From: Planctomycetota bacterium
GTDB taxonomy: Bacteria > Planctomycetota > Phycisphaerae > Phycisphaerales > UBA5793
NCBI GenBank assembly: GCA_963205185.1
Contig: CAUJHZ010000020.1
Coordinates: forward strand, 1 to 58,863
Reading direction: 5' to 3'
Length of the DNA: 58,863 nucleotides
The translations under genes and the position numbers were made by a program. Shown here in pieces: positions 17,522-38,707 of the stretch. The notes under the pieces are model-generated. The model had not been told where the DNA came from and did not search any database. It was given only the letters and a program-made list of their open reading frames with translations. Position 1 is the first letter of the stretch. Each line of letters begins with the position of its first letter.

Positions 17522-19409
17522 GCTGTGAAGATAGGCCCGCAACGCCGCCGCAGCGAGGAAGCGGAATTCGAGGCATCAAGGCGGCAGGACCGCAAAGTCG
17601 CACGTTTAGCCGCGACCCGAAGGCTCCGCGCAGGGGAGCGATGCCAAAGCGCCAAAATGGGTCCCCATGCAGCGCAACCCCGAGCCTCACTCAATTCGCG
17701 CGACGTTGCTGGTGGTGCAGGTGGTGAGGTCGAGGAGTTGGAGGTAGGAGCCGCAAATCGACGGCACGATGGAGGTGCGAATCAGTCCACCGCCGTCTGC
17801 TTCGGACTGCCTCATTAAACCGAGGCGCAGTGCCATCGGATCAAGATCAAGAGTCGTCCCTGAGCAAATGCGCAATCGTGGAACTGTCGAGATTCCCAAG
17901 TCTGCGGAATGAGCGATCGCAATGCGACCGCCGGGTGCGGCTTCCGACCATTGAATCTCGGCTGGACCGCCTTTCGGGCAGATCGCGCGAATAGTCAACT
18001 GTGGGTTGCTCAGTGGGGGAAGAGTGACATGCGCCAAATAGCCATCAAAATCGCGTGGAGCATAGGATTGGTTGATCGCTCCCTCAAAATCGGTCGACAG
18101 TGTCTGCCCAAAAATCACAATGCTGTCGCAGTCGGCGTCGTCGAGAAGCCCCGTCGTCCAGTCAATGTCTGTTCCGCCAATGAATGAAGACCATCTGACC
18201 TGGCCGTCGGTGCTCACTTCGCAAACAAATGCATCCGCAAATCCGGGGCGGATTTCGTCGGTTCTGCCAACGAGGTCAGCTGACACGGTGTCGCCGCAAA
18301 TCACCAGTCTATCTGAATCAAGGATTGCGATGTCCGCCCCATTGTCGACTCTTTCACCGCCGACATAAGTCATCCATCGGACTTCCCCCGGATGATCTAC
18401 GCGGGCGAGATATACGTCAACCTTGCCGAAACTTTAGTTGGTACGACCGACGAAGTCAGGGGAGACCGTCACTCCGATGATGTAGATCTCTCCCCCTTCG
18501 CCGATGGCCACCTTCGGCCGTGGCGTCACAGCCGAGGACTCATCATCGGTCCCCCCCAGGTACATCGTCCAGTCGAGCTCGCCGGCTGGGTTGATTGAGG
18601 CCAGATAGGCGTCGATTCGGCCGATGCGATCATTGAGACGGCTGGTGAGATCGGGTGATCCTGTTCCGCCCGCCAAGATCAGGTGACCATCGGCCCTTCG
18701 CGCCAATCCTCCGCCCACGTCAATGTTGGCGCCGCCAATAAACGTCATCCACTCGATGGCGCCTTCGCTGGAGACGCGGGCGACAAAGCCATCGTCGAGT
18801 CCATAGGATTCGTTCGTCTTTCCCTCGAAATCCGGAGAACTGGTCGTGCCGGAGAGGTAGATTTGATCTTGCCCGTCCAGCACGAGCCCACGACACCAGT
18901 CATTCTCTGACCCGCCGATGTATGAACTCCACAGCAATTGTCCGGTTGGACCAACGTATGCAATGAACACATCCCGTCCACCGTGGAATTCGTTGATCCG
19001 ACGCGGAAAGTCTGTGGAACCGGTCGCCCCAGCGACGATGGCGTGATCATGGCTATCCACCTGGATCGATTCTCCCCAGTCGAGCCAGGCGGAGCCGACA
19101 AACAACGTCCAATACAACTCGCCGGAAGGCGAGACCTTTGAAACGTAGGCATCAGACCAGGTTCCGTATTGATTGAGCTGACCCTCGAAGTTCCCGGAAT
19201 CCGTCCAGCCGGTGACGAGATAATTGCCATCTGAATCCCGTGCCATGTCCATGATCTGGTCAAGGCTTGTGCCACCGAGATATCGCATCCACTTTACATC
19301 CGGATCAATGATGAGTTCGCGGGTCGGATCGACGGGGCCGTCGAGGGTGATTCGATACGTCGTGTCGTTGAGCAGTTCGAAGCGGGCGGGGATGGGATCT
19401 CGGTGATCT

Positions 19410-19484
19410 GACGAGCCGCGCCCGTCAGGCAGCGGTCTTGGACTTCGATCGTCAAGCACCGCTCCCTTACCGTCGCGGCTCGCT
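19410..19484. repeat. Palindromic repeat inside the coding sequence, copy 1
   Basis: Two 27-base arms (19410-19436 and 19458-19484) are imperfect inverted copies of each other around a 21-base spacer. The core arm sequence is GAGCCGCG...AGCGGT. It is translated in frame as part of the SBBP protein (SRDGKGAVLDDRSPRPLPDG). The same unit occurs in the paralogue at 28363-28437. Confidence 0.75.
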
Positions 19485-19930
19485 AAGCACTCCTGCCACA
19501 CGAGCGGCGCGGCGTCGGTGAGTGTGCCGAAGGTGGTCGCGATGTGCAGGCTGCCGGCGTGGTCGATGCACAGTGACTCGATGCCGTCGTACTGGATGCG
19601 GATCTGCGACCAGTCGGCGCCGGGGGCGACGTGGAATTCGTACTTGAGCACGCCGTCGGCATTCGATTCATCCGCGAGGCCGCGGGCGCCAGCGCCGGTG
19701 ATGTGCAGGTCAACGCCGTCGTAGAGGTTGCGATAGACCACCTCGCCGAACGAGGGCACGTTGCTCGCCCACTTCGATTCATCATCGCCGATGAAGTAGT
19801 TGAACCTCGCGCTGCGCGGCTGCGCGGCGACGGGAATGACCTCGTTGCTGCCGGGGAAGGTGACGGTAAGGGTCAGGTGCTCGAGCGAGCGCTGCGGCTG
19901 GCGAGGATCGACCATCAGCTGAGTCTGCGG

Positions 19931-20242
19931 CGAGAGGAGCGCATCACCGCGCCGCTCGTCCAACACCGCTCCCTCACGGTCGGGGCTCGGTTCAGCTGTG
20001 GCATGCGCTGAATGGAGCGCATCATTCCAGCGATCGTCCAACACCGCTCCCTCACGGTCGGGGCTCGGTTCAGCCGCGGCATGCGCCGAATGGAGCGCAT
20101 CACTCCAGCGCTCGTCCAACACCACTCCCTCACGGTCGGGGCTCGGTTCAGCTGCGGCATGCGCTGAATGGAGCGCATCACCGCGCCGCTCGTCCAACAC
20201 CACTCCCTCACGGTCGGGGCTCGGTTCAGCTGCGGCATGCGC
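19931..20242 (-). repeat. Four tandem 78-bp repeats in the SBBP gene
   Basis: Four successive 26-codon units (AHAAAEPSPDREGVVLDER + RGDALHS, with small changes) spanning 312 bases. Differences are mostly V/A, E/D and R/W/N substitutions. The paralogue has three units, so unit number varies. The core resembles one arm of the palindromic repeat at 19410-19484. Confidence 0.9.
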
Positions 20243-20518
20243 GGCCCAGTGGCCTCGCTCACGCGTCGGGCTCGCTTCGGGCATCTCGCGCGCCAGGTGC
20301 ATGGTGAACGATGACTCGCGAAAGGCGATGTCCAGGCCGCGCGCGCGGTAGCCGAAGATCACCCCGGCATCGCTCCACTGCCCCTCGTTGGGCACGAAGT
20401 ACACGCCGCGAAGGCCGAGGTTCAGCCGCTCAGCAGCGGGTGACTGCAACGCAGATGCGCCCGCCGCGAGGACGAGCGAAGAGACGAGTGCGAGACCCCG
20501 AGCGGAAGCGTGGCGCAT

Positions 20519-20640
20519 GACAATCCTCCTGCGCCCGAGCATACCGCAAATCGCACCAGGCCGCAAGGGACAAAGTGCGAACACGCAATCCCGGCCGCGA
20601 AGCCGCAAGCGGCGTGGCGCGGTCTTCAAGCCCCGTCGCC
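20519..20640 (-). repeat. Duplicated upstream region of the SBBP paralogues, copy 1
   Basis: Read on the minus strand, about 120 bases before ATG 20518 align with those before ATG 27425. Both include ACGCCGCTTGCGGCTT, a CCCTTGCG segment, GATTT.CGGTAT.CTC and the AGGAGGA ribosome binding site. The two genes therefore share promoter and leader sequence and may be co-regulated. Confidence 0.7.
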
Positions 20641-20689
20641 GCTGCCCGGGCACTGGCATTTACGGGATTTCGCCCCTATCTTCCGCGTT

Positions 20690-22683: not shown

Positions 22684-25152
22684 ATGAAACGCAACGGTAT
22701 GAGGCGGGCCACCACCACCGGCGCCGCAGCGCTGGGCATTGCGGCGGCAGCGGGCGTCATCGGCGCTGCAGCGGTAAGCAGCGAACGCGATGCGACTCGC
22801 ATCGCGGATGAACTCACGCACCTGGCGCCGTTCGACGTGATCGCGCCCGCTTCGCTCGACCCGGGCGAGCGGCTCATCGCCGAACTCAACTGCATCGCGT
22901 GTCACGCGGCGCCGCAGGCGATCGCCGAGCGGCTCGACTCAAGGAAGGCGCCCCTGCTGGGACAGGTCGGGCAGCGATTCAGCCCCGACTACCTCCGCGC
23001 GTGGCTTGCCGACCCGCACAAGGTCAAGCCTGGCGCGACGATGCCGAACCTGATGACGGGCATCGAGCCGGGGGTGCTCGGTCAAATGGCCGAGCCGCTC
23101 GTGCACTTCCTCGTGTCGCTGGGCGGCATCGCGCGGCCGGTCGAAACTCCATTCAACGAAACAGATGTGAATCGCGGCCGGGTGCTCTATCACCAGGTGG
23201 GCTGCGTGGCCTGCCATGCGCCGCGCGAAGCGCCGGCGGTGCTCAACCCGACGCTCAAGCCGGCCGGTGAAGACCCATACGGCGCCGAGCAGGGGCTGCC
23301 CACCGAGATTCCTGACGGCGCGATGGAAAAGGCAGCGCCGCTCGGCTCGTTCGCACAGACCAATATCGAGTCGCTCACCGATCTGCTCCTCGATCCCGCG
23401 AAGATCCGACCTTCGGGCCGCATGCCCGCGATGAACCTTACGAAGGATGAAGCTCGCGCCATCGCGACGTATCTCATCGCCACCGACGTGGAGAAGAACC
23501 CGCAGGCGGCGGTGCAGGCGCCGTTCACGCTCAATCCCGCCAAAGTGGCGAGCGGTCAGCGGATGTTCGCGCAACTGGGCTGCGCGCACTGCCACGAGAT
23601 GGGGCCGAATCGGACGGAAGTCAAGCCGCAGCGGCCGATGCCATTTACTTCGTTTCTCGAACTCAAGCATCTTGATAAAGGCTGTCTGGCCGCCGAGCCC
23701 GAGGCGATGGTCGCCAATTACAACCTGACCGCCGAGCAGCGCCAACTCATCCGCGAGACGCTCGGCCGGGCCAGGACGCTCTCGCAGCCGCTGAGCGAAG
23801 CCCAGACGATCGACCGCACGCTTGCAACGATGAACTGCTACGCGTGCCACGCGCGCGATGGACAGGGCGGGCCGGTCGAAGCCCGCCGACCGTATTTCAT
23901 GACCATGGGCGAAGCGGAACTCGGCGACGAAGGCCGCTTCCCGCCGCCGCTCACCGGCGTGGGCGGCAAACTCCGCACCGCGTGGATGACGGAAGTGATA
24001 TCCAGCGGCGCCAAAGTCCGTCCATACATGGCCACGCGCATGCCCGTCTTCCAGACCGTGAACGCTGAAGTGCTCGCCGCGAAGTTTGAAAAAGTCGATG
24101 CGCCCTGCCCCGCTGAAGACCTGCCGCCGATGGCGTTCAGCTCACAACTCGCTGCGGATGGGCGGCGCCTGGCGGGCACGGAGCGCGGCATGTCGTGCAT
24201 CAACTGCCACTCGATCAAGGGCAGCGAGCCCATCGGCGAGCCGGCGATGGACCTCGTGAGTACGCACGAGCGCCTGCGCTCCGACTGGTTCCACACCTAC
24301 ATGCTCGACCCGGCGAAGTTGCGCCCGGGCACGCGCATGCCCAACCACTGGCCGCCCGACCAGGCCAATCCGTTCCCCGATGTGCAGGACGGTGATCCGG
24401 ACCGGCAGATCGACGCCATCTGGGCGTACCTCTCGCAGGGTGAGTTCCTCGCGCTGCCCGAAGGCGTGCCCGAAGAAGGCGGCTACGACATTCTCGTGCG
24501 CGATGAGCCGGTCGTGTTCCGCACGTTCATCAAGGGCGCCGGCGCGCGGGCCATCGGCATCGGCTTCAAGGAGCAGGTGCATCTCGCGTTCGACTCGGAG
24601 AAGTGCCGGGTGACGGAGATCTGGCGCGGGCCGTTCCTCAATGCATCAGGCGCCTGGGCCGGCCGGGGCGGTAACGCGACCGATCCAGGCGGCGCGGATG
24701 TCGTCAAGCCTGCCGATGAGTTTCCCTTCAAGACGCTGCAGGGCAACGGCGACATGACGATGACTCAGCCGACGCCGGAGTTTCGCGGCTACCGCTTCGA
24801 TCAATATCGCCAGCCGATCCTGCAGTACTCCTTCGACGACTGGAGCATCGAGGAGCAGCCGCTGCCGATTGTGCGCCCCGCCGCCCCGGGCCTGCGGCGG
24901 ATCTTCGACGTGAAACTGGCGCCGGGCCGCGCGGGCAGCCCGGGCCTGGCGTTCGAAGTGGCCATAGGCGAGCACATCGAGATGACCGGCCGCGATCAGT
25001 ACAACGTCGATGGCCGCGTCACCTACGACGTGCTCTATCCGGACACCGCGGTGCTCAAGGTGATTCACTACCAGGACGCCGACCACCTCGTGCTGCTCTT
25101 TGGCAATTCGAATATCAGCCAGGCTCACTTTGAATTGGGGATGACGTGGTGA
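22684..25152 (+). CDS. Large multihaem cytochrome c
   Basis: 822 residues with an N-terminal hydrophobic anchor/signal (AAALGIAAAAGVIGAAAV). Five CxxCH haem motifs are visible: CIACH (about 70), CVACH (about 174), CAHCH (about 300), CYACH (about 385) and CINCH (about 505). The last 250 residues have no haem motif and form a beta-rich domain (FRTFIKGAGARAIGIGFKEQ). Periplasmic electron transfer, presumably accepting electrons from the dehydrogenase-like protein encoded next, whose start overlaps this stop. Confidence 0.87.
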   Translation: MKRNGMRRATTTGAAALGIAAAAGVIGAAAVSSERDATRIADELTHLAPFDVIAPASLDPGERLIAELNCIACHAAPQAIAERLDSRKAPLLGQVGQRFSPDYLRAWLADPHKVKPGATMPNLMTGIEPGVLGQMAEPLVHFLVSLGGIARPVETPFNETDVNRGRVLYHQVGCVACHAPREAPAVLNPTLKPAGEDPYGAEQGLPTEIPDGAMEKAAPLGSFAQTNIESLTDLLLDPAKIRPSGRMPAMNLTKDEARAIATYLIATDVEKNPQAAVQAPFTLNPAKVASGQRMFAQLGCAHCHEMGPNRTEVKPQRPMPFTSFLELKHLDKGCLAAEPEAMVANYNLTAEQRQLIRETLGRARTLSQPLSEAQTIDRTLATMNCYACHARDGQGGPVEARRPYFMTMGEAELGDEGRFPPPLTGVGGKLRTAWMTEVISSGAKVRPYMATRMPVFQTVNAEVLAAKFEKVDAPCPAEDLPPMAFSSQLAADGRRLAGTERGMSCINCHSIKGSEPIGEPAMDLVSTHERLRSDWFHTYMLDPAKLRPGTRMPNHWPPDQANPFPDVQDGDPDRQIDAIWAYLSQGEFLALPEGVPEEGGYDILVRDEPVVFRTFIKGAGARAIGIGFKEQVHLAFDSEKCRVTEIWRGPFLNASGAWAGRGGNATDPGGADVVKPADEFPFKTLQGNGDMTMTQPTPEFRGYRFDQYRQPILQYSFDDWSIEEQPLPIVRPAAPGLRRIFDVKLAPGRAGSPGLAFEVAIGEHIEMTGRDQYNVDGRVTYDVLYPDTAVLKVIHYQDADHLVLLFGNSNISQAHFELGMTW

Positions 25153-27302: not shown

Positions 27303-27424
27303 GTCCCACTTTCGCTGTGTGTGCCGCACGCCGCTTGCGGCTTAGCGGCCACGCTTGCGGCTTTGCGTTTTGACCCTTGCGTTGCGATGCGATTTCCGGT
27401 ATCCTCAGATGGAGGAGGAATGTC
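27303..27424 (+). repeat. Duplicated upstream region of the SBBP paralogues, copy 2
   Basis: Homologous to the minus-strand sequence at 20519-20640. It includes the palindromic GCCGCTTGCGGC-type element, CCCTTGCG, TTTCCGGTATCCTC and GGAGGAGGAATGTC directly before ATG 27425. Confidence 0.7.
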
Positions 27425-30157
27425 ATGCGCCACGCTTGCACTCGGGGTCTGGGTCTCGCATTCGTCTCTTCGCTTGCGCTGGCGGCGGATGTGCTCGGGT
27501 TTCAGTCGCCTGCTGCCCAGCGGCTCAACCTCGGTTTGCGCGGCGTGTACTTCGTGCCCAACGAGGGGCAGTGGAGCGATGCCGGCGTGATCTTCGGCTA
27601 CCGCTCGCGCGGCCTGGACATCGCCTTTCGCGAATCATCGTTCACCATGCACCTGGCGCGCGAGATGCCCGAAGCGAGCCCGACGCGTGAGCGAGGCCAC
27701 CGGGCCGCGCATGCCGCAGCTGAACCGAGCCCCGACCGTGAGGGAGTGGTGTTGGACGATCGCTGGAGTGATGCGCTCCATTCGGCGCATGCCGCAGCTG
27801 AACCGAGCCCCGACCGTGAGGGAGTGGTGTTGGACGATCGCTGGAATGATGCGCTCCATTCAGCGCATGCCACAGCTGAACCGAGCCCCGACCGTGAGGG
27901 AGTGGTGTTGGACGAGCGGCGCGGTGATGCGCTCCTCTCGCCGCAGACCGAGCCGATGGTCGATCCTCGCCAGCCGCAGCGCTCGCTCGAGCACCTTACC
28001 CTCGCCGTGACCTTCCCCGGCAGCAACGAGGTCATTCCCGTCGCCGCGCAGCCGCGCAGCGCGAAGTTCAACTACTTCGTCGGCGACGATGAATCGAAGT
28101 GGGCCAGCAACGTGCCCTCGTTCGGCGAGGTGGTCTACGAGAATCTCTACGACGGCATCGACCTGCACATCACCGGCGCGCCCGACTCGTCCGGCGTGCT
28201 CAAGTACGAGTTCCACGTCCAACCCGGCGCCGACTGGTCGCAGATCCGCATCAGCTACGACGGCATCGACTCGCTCTGCATCGACGAAGTCGGCAGCCTT
28301 CACATCGCGACATCAATGGGCACACTGACAGACGCCGCGCCGCTCGTGTGGCAGGAGTGCTTAGCGAGCCGCGACGGTAAGGGAGCGGTGCTTGACGATC
28401 GAAGTCCAAGACCGCTACCTGACGGGCGCGGCTCGTCAGATCACCGAGAACCCATCCCCGCCCGCTTCGAACTCGCCAGCGAATCAACCTACACGATCAC
28501 CCTCGACGGCCCCGTCGATCCGACCCGGGAAGTCGTCATCGATCCGGAGGTGGAGTGGATGTACTACCTCGGCGGCTCGGCGGACGAAGTCGCTCAGGCA
28601 ATTAAGATCGGGCCGAATGGGACTCTGCTGACGGTGGGCGAGACGACATCGGTTGATTTCGAGGGAAGAAACAACTCATACTTTGGTGGCGCGACGGACG
28701 GGTTTCTGGCAAACATGACACAAGCCGGCGAGTTGGCATGGATAACGTACTTCGGTGGCAACAATGAAGAGCGCAATCTGAATCTCGGTCTCGACGACAC
28801 CGGAATACTCTACATTTGCGGCACGACTCTGTCGAACGACCTGCCAGGACGACACAACAACGCTCATGGCCTCGAAGATGGATTCGTCGCCCGCGTCAGT
28901 CGCACAGGCAACCTGCACTGGACAAGCTACGTGGGAGGGAGCAGCGCAGACAGTTGTGCTGACCTCGCAGTCAGTGCCGATGGGCGGCTGTACGTCACGG
29001 GTTCGACCGAGTCAATTGACTTTGAAGGTCGCAACAACTCCACACACGACAATCACTGGCACTACGGCGACGCTTATCTTGCCGTCATGGACCGCCTTGG
29101 TGCGCTGCAGTGGATGACCTACCTCGGCGGAGAAGGGAAGGACGAGGGGACCGCAATCGTAGCGGACCCCTCGGGCGATCTCTTTCTGATTGGACAAACC
29201 ACTTCAGTCAGTTTTGAAGGGCAGATCAATAATAATATTGGTTTCACTGATGCCTTTGCCCTCCGAATCACGAGAGACGGTGAATCGCTCTGGATGAGGT
29301 ATTTCGGGGGCGCGGAGGATGAGTTCGGCTCCGGAGTGGTGCTTGACGACAGGCAGGAATACCTCTACATCGCCGGGCTAACGGCCTCACCGCAATTCGA
29401 AGGACAGATCAACAGTCATCACGGCGGCGACACCTACCAAGACGGGTACCTGCTCAAGGTGAGCGTATCGGGCGAACTGGATTGGATGGTGTTCCTGGGT
29501 GGCTCGGAGGCCGATCTGGCATACAGCGCGACGATAGACAGCGATGGGCAGATCATCGTCGCAGGCAGCACGGCATCGAGCAATTTCGAGGGTCGAATCA
29601 ATGACCATCACGGTGGGTACAACGACGCGTTCGTGTTGGCCCGAAGCCCCTCTGGTGACCTGGGAGAGATGATCTACACCGGCGGGAGTGACTCAGAAAG
29701 GGCCCGCAGCTGCGCCGCGGATGGCTTCGGCCGCGTCTACGTCTCCGGCAGCACCAAGTCGCCGACCTTTGACGCATCACTCAATTCGAATCATGGCGCT
29801 ATGGATGCGTTCGTCCTGCGCGTCGTTACGGTGGCTGGTCTTCGGTTGCGTGTAGTCACGGCGTGTCCGAGTGGCGGGCCATCAAGCGTCACCTGGTTCA
29901 ACGCCACGCCCAGCGCCCCCACAGCGCTGCTCTTCGCCCGCGCGGCCGGCTCGTTCACCATCCCCAACAACCGCCCGTGCCCCGGCACGATGCTCGGCCT
30001 CGGCGCCGAGCAACTCCAGGTCGCCTTCACCGGCCACTCCGACGCCAACGGCTCGCGCACACTCAACGCCACCATCGGCCCCAGCCTCTGCGGCGGCTAC
30101 CTCCAACTCCTCGACCTCACCACCTGCGCCACCAGCAACGTCGCGCGGATTGAGTGA
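27425..30157 (+). CDS. SBBP-repeat secreted beta-propeller protein
   Basis: About 910 residues. Strong GGAGGA site before ATG 27425; the signal peptide (LAFVSSLALAADVLG) is followed by LRGVYFVPNEGQWSDAGVIF. Three 26-residue tandem repeats follow, then a beta-sandwich-like region, then some eight SBBP/propeller repeats of about 50 residues (WMTYLGGEGKDEGTAIVAD ... LIGQTTSVSFEGQ). The C-terminal domain has paired cysteines and ends LLDLTTCATSNVARIE. It is the intact paralogue of the interrupted gene at 17687-20518. SBBP proteins are secreted or surface proteins of unknown function. Confidence 0.85.
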   Translation: MRHACTRGLGLAFVSSLALAADVLGFQSPAAQRLNLGLRGVYFVPNEGQWSDAGVIFGYRSRGLDIAFRESSFTMHLAREMPEASPTRERGHRAAHAAAEPSPDREGVVLDDRWSDALHSAHAAAEPSPDREGVVLDDRWNDALHSAHATAEPSPDREGVVLDERRGDALLSPQTEPMVDPRQPQRSLEHLTLAVTFPGSNEVIPVAAQPRSAKFNYFVGDDESKWASNVPSFGEVVYENLYDGIDLHITGAPDSSGVLKYEFHVQPGADWSQIRISYDGIDSLCIDEVGSLHIATSMGTLTDAAPLVWQECLASRDGKGAVLDDRSPRPLPDGRGSSDHREPIPARFELASESTYTITLDGPVDPTREVVIDPEVEWMYYLGGSADEVAQAIKIGPNGTLLTVGETTSVDFEGRNNSYFGGATDGFLANMTQAGELAWITYFGGNNEERNLNLGLDDTGILYICGTTLSNDLPGRHNNAHGLEDGFVARVSRTGNLHWTSYVGGSSADSCADLAVSADGRLYVTGSTESIDFEGRNNSTHDNHWHYGDAYLAVMDRLGALQWMTYLGGEGKDEGTAIVADPSGDLFLIGQTTSVSFEGQINNNIGFTDAFALRITRDGESLWMRYFGGAEDEFGSGVVLDDRQEYLYIAGLTASPQFEGQINSHHGGDTYQDGYLLKVSVSGELDWMVFLGGSEADLAYSATIDSDGQIIVAGSTASSNFEGRINDHHGGYNDAFVLARSPSGDLGEMIYTGGSDSERARSCAADGFGRVYVSGSTKSPTFDASLNSNHGAMDAFVLRVVTVAGLRLRVVTACPSGGPSSVTWFNATPSAPTALLFARAAGSFTIPNNRPCPGTMLGLGAEQLQVAFTGHSDANGSRTLNATIGPSLCGGYLQLLDLTTCATSNVARIE
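27707..27940 (+). repeat. Three tandem 78-bp repeats in the SBBP gene
   Basis: Three 26-codon units (AHAAAEPSPDREGVVLDDR + WSDALHS), nearly identical at DNA level to the four units in the paralogue. The preceding EASPTRERGHRAAH looks like a further, diverged unit. Confidence 0.9.
28363..28437. repeat. Palindromic repeat inside the coding sequence, copy 2
   Basis: Arms 28363-28389 and 28411-28437 match as an inverted repeat at 21 of 27 positions, core GAGCCGCG and AGCGGT. It is translated in frame. The left arm (GCGACGGTAAGGGAGCGGTG) also matches the core of the tandem 78-bp units (CCGACCGTGAGGGAGTGGTG), suggesting common descent. Confidence 0.75.
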
Positions 30158-35313: not shown

Positions 35314-36114
35314 TCAGTTGCGATCCCCGGCCTGGTTCTTCTCTTTCATCTCGGCCAGAAGCGCATCCACGGCTTCATCCATCTTCTCGCCGCGCACGTT
35401 CGTGTAGCGCACGCGTCCCTCGCCGTCGAGGACGAAGATGGTCGGCCAGGAGTACACGCCCCATTTCGTGGCGATCGGGCCGCGCGTGTTGCCGCCGTCC
35501 CAGAACATGGGCCACGAAAGGTTCTGCTCCTTGATGGCTTTGAGAATGCGATCCTTGGGATCGCTGTTGATGCCGAGCAGGACGAAGGGTTCATCTTTCA
35601 AACGTTCAACGAGCGACCGCTCGTGCGGGTACATGGCCCTGCAAGGCGGTCACCAATCGCCAAAGAAGTCGATGACGACGACTTTGCCGCGATACTGCTC
35701 CAGCTCCATCGACTTGCCGTCGATGCCTTCGCCCTTGATGTTGGGCGCGATGCGGCCGATCGTGAGATTCTCAACCCGATAGAGATTGGTCTTGATGAGA
35801 TCGGCGTGCTTGGGGTACTTGGCCGCCAGGGCCTTGAGGAACTCCGACGCCGTCTTCACCTGCTCGTCGGACACGGCCATGCCGCTGATGGCCACCGTGC
35901 CCAGCGCGTTGCGCAGGGCCGCGCCGTCGTCGCTTTCGGCTGCCGCCTTGATCTTGTCGAGGCGCTCCTGGAGCTGCGCATCGCTCATGGCCGGAACGTC
36001 GGCTTCCAGCAGCGAAACGGTCGTCGGCCGAGCCAACTCGGCCGCTCCCATCGCCGCCGGCGTCACCAGCGCCGCAGCCAGCACGAGGCAACTCATGCTG
36101 AATCTGACTCTCAT
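35314..36114 (-). CDS. Thioredoxin-like (TlpA/redoxin) protein, candidate selenoprotein with in-frame TGA
   Basis: Reading from ATG 36114 (GGAGG nine bases upstream, signal peptide MSCLVLAAALVTPAAMGA), the frame runs through a helical region into a redoxin domain. VVVIDFFGDW is followed by TGA (35652-35650, codon 155) and then, without any frame change, PPCRAMYPHERSLVERL and the rest of a thioredoxin fold (LLGINSDPKDR; YSWPTIFVLDGEGR with the cis-proline). The TGA sits exactly where the first redox cysteine of a WCPPC motif belongs, so the product would carry U-P-P-C. With selenocysteine the protein has 266 residues. A sequencing error or nonsense mutation TGC to TGA is the alternative. No selA/B/C/D genes are in this window. 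Confidence 0.7.
35615..35651 (-). promoter_or_regulatory. SECIS-like stem-loop immediately after the in-frame UGA
   Basis: In the mRNA, GACCGC (beginning in the UGA itself) pairs perfectly with GCGGUC 25 bases on. Inside, UGC-A-GGG pairs with CCC-GCA around a 7-base loop. Bacterial SECIS elements lie within the coding sequence directly downstream of UGA and have this general size. The usual apical-loop G is satisfied only if the closing G-C pair opens, and the loop is slightly nearer the UGA than typical. Confidence 0.45.
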
Positions 36115-36274
36115 AAATTGAATCCTCCGCATGAAAAGGGACCCGATCAGCCGCTGGACTGTAGCGCCGCGGCGGCGGCCGGTTGCACCCATCCCCGAAA
36201 CCGGCGGCGTGAGCGAGATACAGTATCGCGCCGTTCACCGCCTACCCGCACCGCCGCCAGCAAGGGAGTCCGGC

Positions 36275-38707
36275 ATGAAACGACCGCTTTGCGAATCAAG
36301 CCTCGCGCTCGCCCGCCTTCTGTGCGTCCTGACATGCGCCTGGGCGACTGCTGCAAGTCTGGCCCAAGGCCCGCCGGAGGATGCCAACTTCGCCGCCAGC
36401 GAGACGGGGCGGAAGATCATCCAGCTCGCGCAGGCGTACGAGTCGGCCGGCTTTCGCGGCGCGGTGCTCGCAGCGCGCGATGGGCAGGTCGTCGCGGCCG
36501 TCGGCGTGGGGCATGCCGATCTGAAGGGCGAGCAGCCGATCGTCCCATCCACGCTCTTCGAGATCGCGTCGATCACCAAGCCCTTCACCGCGGTCGAAGC
36601 GATGCGCCTCGCTGCGGATGGCAAACTCGATCTCGACGCGTCGATCAGCGACTACCTGCCCGGCGTGCCCGATGAGTGCAAGCCCATCACGGTGCGGCAC
36701 CTGCTGCAGCACACCTCGGGCATTCCGGGAACCAACTCGCAAGGCAGCGGCGACGACCTGGCGGCCGTGCTGCCCGTGTTTCTCAAGGGCGGGCCGCAGC
36801 GCGAGCCAGGCACGCACTGGGAATACTGGAACCAGGGCTACGCGCTGCTCAGCGCCATCATCGCGCGGGTCAGCGGCGAATCGTGCGTGGACTATTGCCG
36901 CCGCGCCGTCTTCGAGCCTGCGGGCATGGCGCACTCGTGCTTCACGGGCGATGCGCCGCCGCCGGGTGTGAACGTCGCAGTGGGCACATCGGGCTACGGC
37001 GAGCCGCGCTCGGCGCTGGAGCATCCTTACGGCAGTTACGGCTACCAGTATCGCGGCATGGGCGGACTCGTCACCAACGTGTGGGACCTGTGGCGCTGGG
37101 ACCGCGCGCTCGCCGGCGAAACGCTGCTCAGCGAGGCGAGCAAGACGGAGATGTTCACGCCCGGCGAGCGGAGTTACGGCCTGGGCTGGTTCGTGCTCAC
37201 CAACAAGGCCGGGCGCCTGATGCAGAGCCACAGCGGAGGCGTGCGCGGCTTTGCCTGCGATTTGCGCCGCTTCCCCGAGCATGAAGCGCTCGTGGTGGTC
37301 CTGAGCGCCCGCGATGATGTGCCGGTATGGCGCATCGCCGAGGCGGTGGAGGCCACGCTCTTTGGCGATCGTGAAGTGCTGCTGCCGCCGGCGCCGCTCG
37401 AATCGCAGATCGCCAGCGAGATCGCCGGCCGGTACGAAGACGAGCGCGGCAACGTGCTGACCGTGGAGCGCCAGGACGCCGTGACGCGCGCGACGGTGAA
37501 GTGGCAATCCGGGCCGACGACCCGCGCCATCCTCGGATCGGATGATCAGGGCGGGCTCGTGTTCTACGAGTGGATGAGCGCGATCGGCATGGAGATCGTG
37601 CGCGATGAGGCCGGCAGCGTGACCGCCCTGGCCATCCAGGGACATGCGTATCAAAGAAGTGCGGAGGGCGCCGGGGCCGGCGGCGATGACGGTCTGCAGA
37701 GTCGCATCGCCAAGGCCAGCGAACTGAAACTTCTCGACGAAACGCTCGCAAAGGAGTTGCTCGGCCGATACGACGACGGCAAGGGGGTGGCGCTGGTGGT
37801 GGGAGCGGTCGAGGGCGGCCACACGAGTGCCGATATCCACTGGTCGCAAAGCGGTCCCGTTTCCTATGGGCGCTTCAAGATCGATGACTCCGGTGCGCTC
37901 AAGTTCGTCGACACGGCCTCCATGGACAGTTACTCCGTTGAAGTTGGGCGAGGCGAGGACGGTGCAGTGGAAAGCATTGCCATCCTGATCGGAACCCACC
38001 GCAAACAGTTCTGGCGTCCAGGGGCGGACGGGAAAGTGACGGCGCCTGCTCAGCAGCCGGAGGCCAGCGACAACGTCGACCAGTGGCGCGACGAACTGGT
38101 TGGCAGGTATGACGACGGCGACAACCTCACCCTCACCATCACCAAAGGGTCGCGGCAACTGCTCGGGCTCTTCGAATTCAAGTCGCGCCCGGGTTTGACG
38201 ATGCACGCGAAGCTTGATAAGAACGAAGAAGGAGGCATCGTGCTGTACTATGGCGGCGGGCCGCTCGACGTCGCCATCGATCGCGATGAGAACGGCGCGG
38301 TGGCGGTGCTCCGATTCTCCGGAGAGCAGCCGCTGCCGCATCCCTTCCGACGCCTGGCGGCCGGTGAAGAACCACAGGCGCAGCCAGCCACTCCCCCACC
38401 CGCTGCCGAGCCCCCCGACTGGGCCGCGCTGCTGCTGGGTCGCTACAAAGATGAACAGGCCATCGAACTCGTCGTCGCGACCTCCGGCCGCATGGTCACG
38501 GCACAGATTCACTGGTCGCCGAAGGGGCCCATCACCTACGCCAGGCTGGAGCACACCGAGGCGGGCGAATTCGAGTTCGTCGAGTTCTCGCGTTCGCCGT
38601 CAAAGCATCCGGTCGAGATCATCCGCGATGACGCCGGCAAGGCGCAGTCGATCACCATCATCGCAGGCGAGCGCCGCCAGAAGTTCGATCGCGTGGAGGA
38701 GAAGTAG
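36275..38707 (+). CDS. Beta-lactamase-family serine hydrolase with four C-terminal repeats
   Basis: About 810 residues. ATG 36275 has GGGAG upstream and a signal peptide. The catalytic domain has SITK (S99-x-x-K102), the YWN tyrosine motif in HWEYWNQGYALLS and the HSGG triad in MQSHSGGVRGF, as in class C beta-lactamase/D-alanyl carboxypeptidase/esterase proteins. After residue about 380 come four repeats of 112-113 residues, each opening with GRYEDERG, GRYDDGKG, GRYDDGDN or GRYKDEQA (positions about 385, 497, 610, 722). Substrate unknown. Divergent from the thioredoxin-like gene. Confidence 0.85.
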   Translation: MKRPLCESSLALARLLCVLTCAWATAASLAQGPPEDANFAASETGRKIIQLAQAYESAGFRGAVLAARDGQVVAAVGVGHADLKGEQPIVPSTLFEIASITKPFTAVEAMRLAADGKLDLDASISDYLPGVPDECKPITVRHLLQHTSGIPGTNSQGSGDDLAAVLPVFLKGGPQREPGTHWEYWNQGYALLSAIIARVSGESCVDYCRRAVFEPAGMAHSCFTGDAPPPGVNVAVGTSGYGEPRSALEHPYGSYGYQYRGMGGLVTNVWDLWRWDRALAGETLLSEASKTEMFTPGERSYGLGWFVLTNKAGRLMQSHSGGVRGFACDLRRFPEHEALVVVLSARDDVPVWRIAEAVEATLFGDREVLLPPAPLESQIASEIAGRYEDERGNVLTVERQDAVTRATVKWQSGPTTRAILGSDDQGGLVFYEWMSAIGMEIVRDEAGSVTALAIQGHAYQRSAEGAGAGGDDGLQSRIAKASELKLLDETLAKELLGRYDDGKGVALVVGAVEGGHTSADIHWSQSGPVSYGRFKIDDSGALKFVDTASMDSYSVEVGRGEDGAVESIAILIGTHRKQFWRPGADGKVTAPAQQPEASDNVDQWRDELVGRYDDGDNLTLTITKGSRQLLGLFEFKSRPGLTMHAKLDKNEEGGIVLYYGGGPLDVAIDRDENGAVAVLRFSGEQPLPHPFRRLAAGEEPQAQPATPPPAAEPPDWAALLLGRYKDEQAIELVVATSGRMVTAQIHWSPKGPITYARLEHTEAGEFEFVEFSRSPSKHPVEIIRDDAGKAQSITIIAGERRQKFDRVEEK

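Follow-up and report, generated by a model that had tools for sequence, protein, structure and literature searches.

The window, that is, the whole stretch of 58,863 nucleotides that we analyzed, is contig C20 of a planctomycete draft genome (G000; 4.55 Mb, 97% complete, 76 contigs). When TGA was read as U, the frame from 36114 to 35314 on the reverse strand contained only one internal TGA, namely codon 155 (35652-35650). The surrounding residues were VVIDFFGDW-U-PPCRAMYPHE, with the UGA in place of the first Cys of W-C-P-P-C. The first-pass annotation had claimed that the redoxin frame crosses this TGA without a shift and that the TGA replaces the first Cys of a WCPPC-type motif. Both claims held: the frame is open, and the AhpC-TSA (80 bits) and Redoxin (65 bits) profile matches were unbroken across the TGA when it was read as Cys. 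The terminal stop of the gene is itself a TGA, indicating that UGA also serves as a stop in the host genome. We searched the window for in-frame TGAs that had 60 open codons both before and after them and a Cys/Ser/Thr close by, judging the flanks by eye, and codon 155 was the sole site with a recognisable fold on both flanks and a qualifying hairpin. Elsewhere in the window, a large gene with cytochrome c domains lies about 10 kb away (22684-25152), and nothing ties it to the gene described here. The gene at 27377-30157 encodes a DUF7948/SBBP beta-propeller protein that contains an internal near-repeat (HAAAEPSPDREGVVLDDRW...), and another DUF7948/SBBP gene lies at 18437-20659 on the reverse strand.

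Table 1. Coordinates of the features of the candidate selenoprotein gene (window positions) and of the host selenocysteine genes (contig C45)
Feature	Position	Strand	Remarks
Whole CDS, 266 residues, proposed Sec at 155	35314..36114	-	predicted TlpA/ResA-like (AhpC-TSA/Redoxin) oxidoreductase
Ribosome-binding site GGAGG	36124..36128	-	upstream of the ATG at 36114; read from the sequence
Probable secretory signal peptide, residues ~1-24	36043..36114	-	basic start, hydrophobic core, small residues; judged by eye
UGA codon 155	35650..35652	-	read as selenocysteine; UxxC position 1
Cys158	35641..35643	-	proposed resolving cysteine of U-P-P-C; invariant in UGA homologues
SECIS-like hairpin ACGAGC-GGUC-GCUCGU	35609..35624	-	apical loop GGUC 35618-35615
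Pro224	35443..35445	-	W-P-T cis-proline motif; invariant
Terminal stop TGA	35314..35316	-	
selD	C45 10672-9611	-	348 bits, over curated cut-off
selB	C45 9591-7615	same as selD	354 bits, over curated cut-off
selA	C45 7602-6154	same as selD	524 bits, over curated cut-off
selC (tRNA-Sec)	C45 6081-5986	same as selD	68.2 bits, over family cut-off

We modelled the protein with AlphaFold2 (mean pLDDT 80.6; below 50 for residues 1-39) and obtained a thioredoxin fold preceded by a helical N-terminal part. Among solved structures, ResA-type thiol-disulfide oxidoreductases matched best (Foldseek TM-score 0.87 by target length), and ResA was also the best sequence match (phmmer E 3e-17). The scores against the curated models for ResA (NF002854, 68.7 bits, cut-off 170) and DsbE (TIGR00385, 51.9 bits, cut-off 123.15) were under their cut-offs, and we therefore class the protein as ResA-like and not as ResA. 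An AhpC-TSA/Redoxin domain, the thioredoxin fold, UxxC in place of CxxC and a cis-Pro were all found, and by sequence and predicted fold the protein is a TlpA/ResA-like thiol-disulfide oxidoreductase. The cis-proline region had been described as intact, and this proved correct; the W-P-T motif covers residues 223-225, and P224 and T225 are invariant among the UGA homologues. The redox motif lies at the same place as in ResA (Bacillus; PDB 4nmu, 1st9) and TlpA/CcmG. The active site of ResA is Cys-x-x-Cys, whereas the present protein would have Sec first, and the partners of ResA, TlpA and CcmG serve cytochrome c maturation. From the appearance of its N-terminus, judged by eye, the protein is probably secreted. 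The gene had first been labelled a selenoprotein thioredoxin; the selenoprotein part of the label stands, but the identity of a classical thioredoxin was ruled out because the score against the thioredoxin equivalog TIGR01068 was far under the cut-off (34 vs. 96.8 bits), and the label is restricted to a TlpA/ResA-like oxidoreductase that is probably secreted. Selenocysteine thioredoxins (PF00085, UxxC) likewise carry U-x-x-C in a thioredoxin fold, from which the present protein differs by this low equivalog score and by its probable secretion.

Conservation of the UGA was sought in at least one other organism, and we found UGA homologues as 15 genes in 12 genomes from four taxonomic families, with UGA in the codon 155 column in all 15. 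This agreement, the sole site in the window scan and the lack of internal stops in 18 further AhpC-TSA-type matches of the genome show that the observation goes beyond chance. Distant matches flagged for an internal TGA away from this codon (e.g. L049, L109) were left out of the count. Orthologues in two genomes of the same genus, G003 (95% identity) and G001 (70%), carry W-U-P-P-C. A beta-lactamase-family gene (36131-38707) adjoins the selenoprotein gene, and this neighbourhood is kept in G003 and G001, which supports orthology and is silent on function. The host also has a paralogue (L023/L077; G000:C56:14510-14941) with UGA at the equivalent codon (W-U-G-P-C), the same hairpin core as the main gene and a longer N-terminal region. 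A second homologue group, with W-U-G-P-C or W-U-D-P-C, is present in all five family relatives searched (G001-G005), and the domains of the two host-family groups are only about 50% identical. Further UGA forms occur across the class (G318, G350, G127, G196, G142 and G262), and more distant homologues, in G362, G326, G249, G329, G158 and others, have Cys at this position. The alignment of homologues that had been proposed as a check thus gave a clean Cys/Sec exchange, in which the UGA of codon 155 aligns with the catalytic Cys. On a tree of 35 domains the Sec/Cys label changed twice, compared with about 11.5 times when the labels were shuffled.

We next considered whether the gene could be a pseudogene, truncated at codon 155 by a nonsense mutation. 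Under table 11 the frame does stop there and gives a short product that lacks the resolving Cys. However, other species and another genus have retained the identical UGA, and the frame bears no further lesions. In addition, dN/dS 3' of the UGA was 0.16 for G000/G003, 0.32 for G000/G001 and 0.09 to 0.29 in the second group, and the values before the UGA were close to those after it. Low dN/dS after the UGA indicates that these codons are translated and selected, and purifying selection acts on the codons on both sides of it. The statement that the rest of the gene is well preserved is borne out by these results, and we regard a pseudogene as very improbable. An error in sequencing or assembly that changed a Cys codon (TGC or TGT) to TGA through a single base might be suspected in a draft of 76 contigs; but UGA occupies the equivalent codon in 15 homologues from 12 separate genomes, including the paralogue in the same genome, and this recurrence in other species and genera makes a read error not credible.

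The first-pass annotation had also proposed a search of the host for selA, selB, selC and selD, and had staked its reading on the presence of selB and selC. All four genes were found over curated cut-offs in one genome, together on contig C45 (5986-10672), on a single strand and in the order selD-selB-selA-selC. The host tRNA-Sec has the anticodon UCA, and SelB has the winged-helix domains SelB-wing_2 and SelB-wing_3. Selenophosphate synthetase belongs to the known selenoproteins, with UxxK as its motif (PMC13188914), and the host selD (L009:9611-10672, reverse strand) has an in-frame UGA, NCAG-U-AGKL. Because selD is itself a UGA gene, the host needs to decode UGA as Sec. Formate dehydrogenase was considered as a further host selenoprotein and dropped, as no UGA was found in the formate-dehydrogenase-like genes of the genome.

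Presence of the machinery was then compared with presence of the UGA form. Among 61 near genomes searched, selA was matched in 12 (one of them under the cut-off) and had no match in 49; the host family contributes all six of its genomes to these 12, and each of the six has the UGA form. The distant UGA genomes G318, G127, G196, G142 and G262 also have selA. G350, an 88%-complete assembly, has tRNA-Sec without selA, and G318, 82% complete, has selA without tRNA-Sec, so that selA and/or tRNA-Sec is present in 12 of 12 UGA genomes and both are present in 10. The converse fails, since selA is also present in several genomes that have the Cys form but not the UGA form. Two tRNA-Sec matches, in G010 and G016 (L170, L171), were discarded because ARAGORN identified them as tRNA-Ser; in these genomes the Rfam tRNA-Sec model places tRNA-Ser over its gathering score, and matches near the cut-off therefore need a check of the anticodon. 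In G005 (C1:952736-954114) the selA match is split into two neighbouring parts that stand in different open frames, for which a frameshift or an assembly error may be responsible.

These results bear on whether the UGA is decoded as another amino acid, either by an alternative code or by near-cognate read-through to Trp, Cys or Arg. Read-through would likewise yield a full-length protein. But UGA terminates the present gene as well as selB, selA and selD, none of the genome's 18 further AhpC-TSA-type matches contains an internal stop or an in-frame UGA, and UGA alternates with Cys at the catalytic position and co-occurs with the Sec genes. Such decoding appears extremely unlikely.

We then analyzed the RNA downstream of the UGA. 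The SECIS-like hairpin has 6 bp and a stability of -7.9 kcal/mol, its loop lies 31 nt past the UGA, and it is formed by codons +9 to +13 (H-E-R-S-L: CAC GAG CGG TCG CTC). These codons are identical in all nine host-family genes, among which most other conserved degenerate positions vary. The host selD carries a hairpin, UUGCACA-GGU-UGUGCAA, 32 nt past its UGA, with an unrelated stem and a shared GGU loop. Both hairpins conform to the published rules for bSECIS loop, stem and spacing (PMC13188914). An uninterrupted stem of at least 6 bp with a rule-conforming loop was present in 10 of the 15 UGA homologues and in none of the 22 Cys homologues. The strict hairpin was absent from five more distant UGA homologues. 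Four distant UGA homologues without a strict bSECIS hairpin (L096, L099, L100 and L105) have W-U-G-G-C, and perhaps they use another SECIS class.

The hairpin by itself proves little, since about 6.5% of synonymous shuffles reach a hairpin of at least 6 bp with a loop that fits the rule. As close relatives, the nine host-family hairpins do not count as nine independent cases, and their invariant stem leaves no room for a test of covariation. When 53 nt from the window were folded in isolation, the structure of minimum energy had an alternative pairing that uses bases adjacent to the UGA, and its z-score of -1.35 was unremarkable; we rejected this free fold as weak proof of a SECIS element. The bases next to the UGA in the alternative pairing would lie inside the ribosome during decoding.

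Taken together, the machinery, the conserved UGA, the Sec/Cys exchange, the selection and the hairpin strongly support the original reading of Sec-Pro-Pro-Cys. Judged from sequence, the gene is almost certainly intact, with a product that is a TlpA/ResA-like oxidoreductase, probably secreted, and has Sec as its attacking residue; we infer that selenium is incorporated at codon 155. The winged-helix domains of SelB would bind to the hairpin located 31 nt beyond the UGA and bring Sec-tRNA to the ribosome paused on this codon, and the finished selenoprotein would be exported from the cytoplasm. Sec155 would act as the nucleophile that attacks a substrate disulfide, and Cys158 would resolve the mixed selenylsulfide. 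Every Sec UGA is in competition with termination, so a regulated switch could be imagined that gives the 266-residue selenoprotein in selenium-replete cells and a meaningful 154-residue fragment in selenium-poor cells; this has very little probability, given that we saw no sign of a function for the 154-residue product, which would end within the thioredoxin fold, right after strand 145-151 of the model.

The selenoprotein reading places the gene among known families. Table 1 of PMC13188914 lists Prx-like thiol:disulfide oxidoreductase selenoproteins (PF00578, UxxC/UxxU) and a 'Redoxin family protein' (PF08534, UxxC), and cd02966 UxxC selenoproteins are among those in the same paper. We liken the present family to these PF00578/PF08534 selenoproteins (PF00578 UxxC representative WP_010940744.1) by Pfam domains and by UxxC with Sec first; it differs from the catalogue in its extra N-terminal region and in its variants U-P-P-C, U-G-P-C, U-D-P-C and U-G-G-C. 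A thiol-disulfide isomerase-like selenoprotein (cd02966 TlpA-like, UxxC) was predicted from the Sargasso Sea (PMC1088965), and it resembles the present protein in its TlpA-like domain and UxxC motif. In contrast to that prediction, the host genome, the machinery and the conservation of the SECIS element are here linked to the gene within a defined lineage. PMC4807772 describes planctomycetes that have complete sets of Sec genes and selenoproteins of redox function, and the present host agrees with them in having a full Sec gene set and a probable redox selenoprotein. The literature searched yielded no UxxC selenoprotein of the TlpA type that was linked to a named relative. The gene is thus a well-supported addition to the already catalogued UxxC selenoproteins of the superfamily and introduces no new principle.

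One may ask why the lineage keeps its whole Sec machinery, no UGA having been found in its formate-dehydrogenase-like genes. Lineage-specific secreted TlpA-like selenoproteins, of which there are two groups in the genus, together with the selenoprotein SelD, are a possible but doubtful candidate for the main reason. If this were true, the lineage would retain Sec to exchange disulfides outside the cytoplasm, not to metabolise formate. Standard annotation would label the gene as truncated or broken. A functional selenoprotein is what the evidence indicates, and the SECIS element, the paralogue and the related genes across several families would make a correct annotation possible. The natural Sec/Cys pairs (U-P-P-C, U-G-P-C, U-G-G-C and the Cys forms) offer a test of what selenium contributes to TlpA/ResA-type chemistry outside the cytoplasm.
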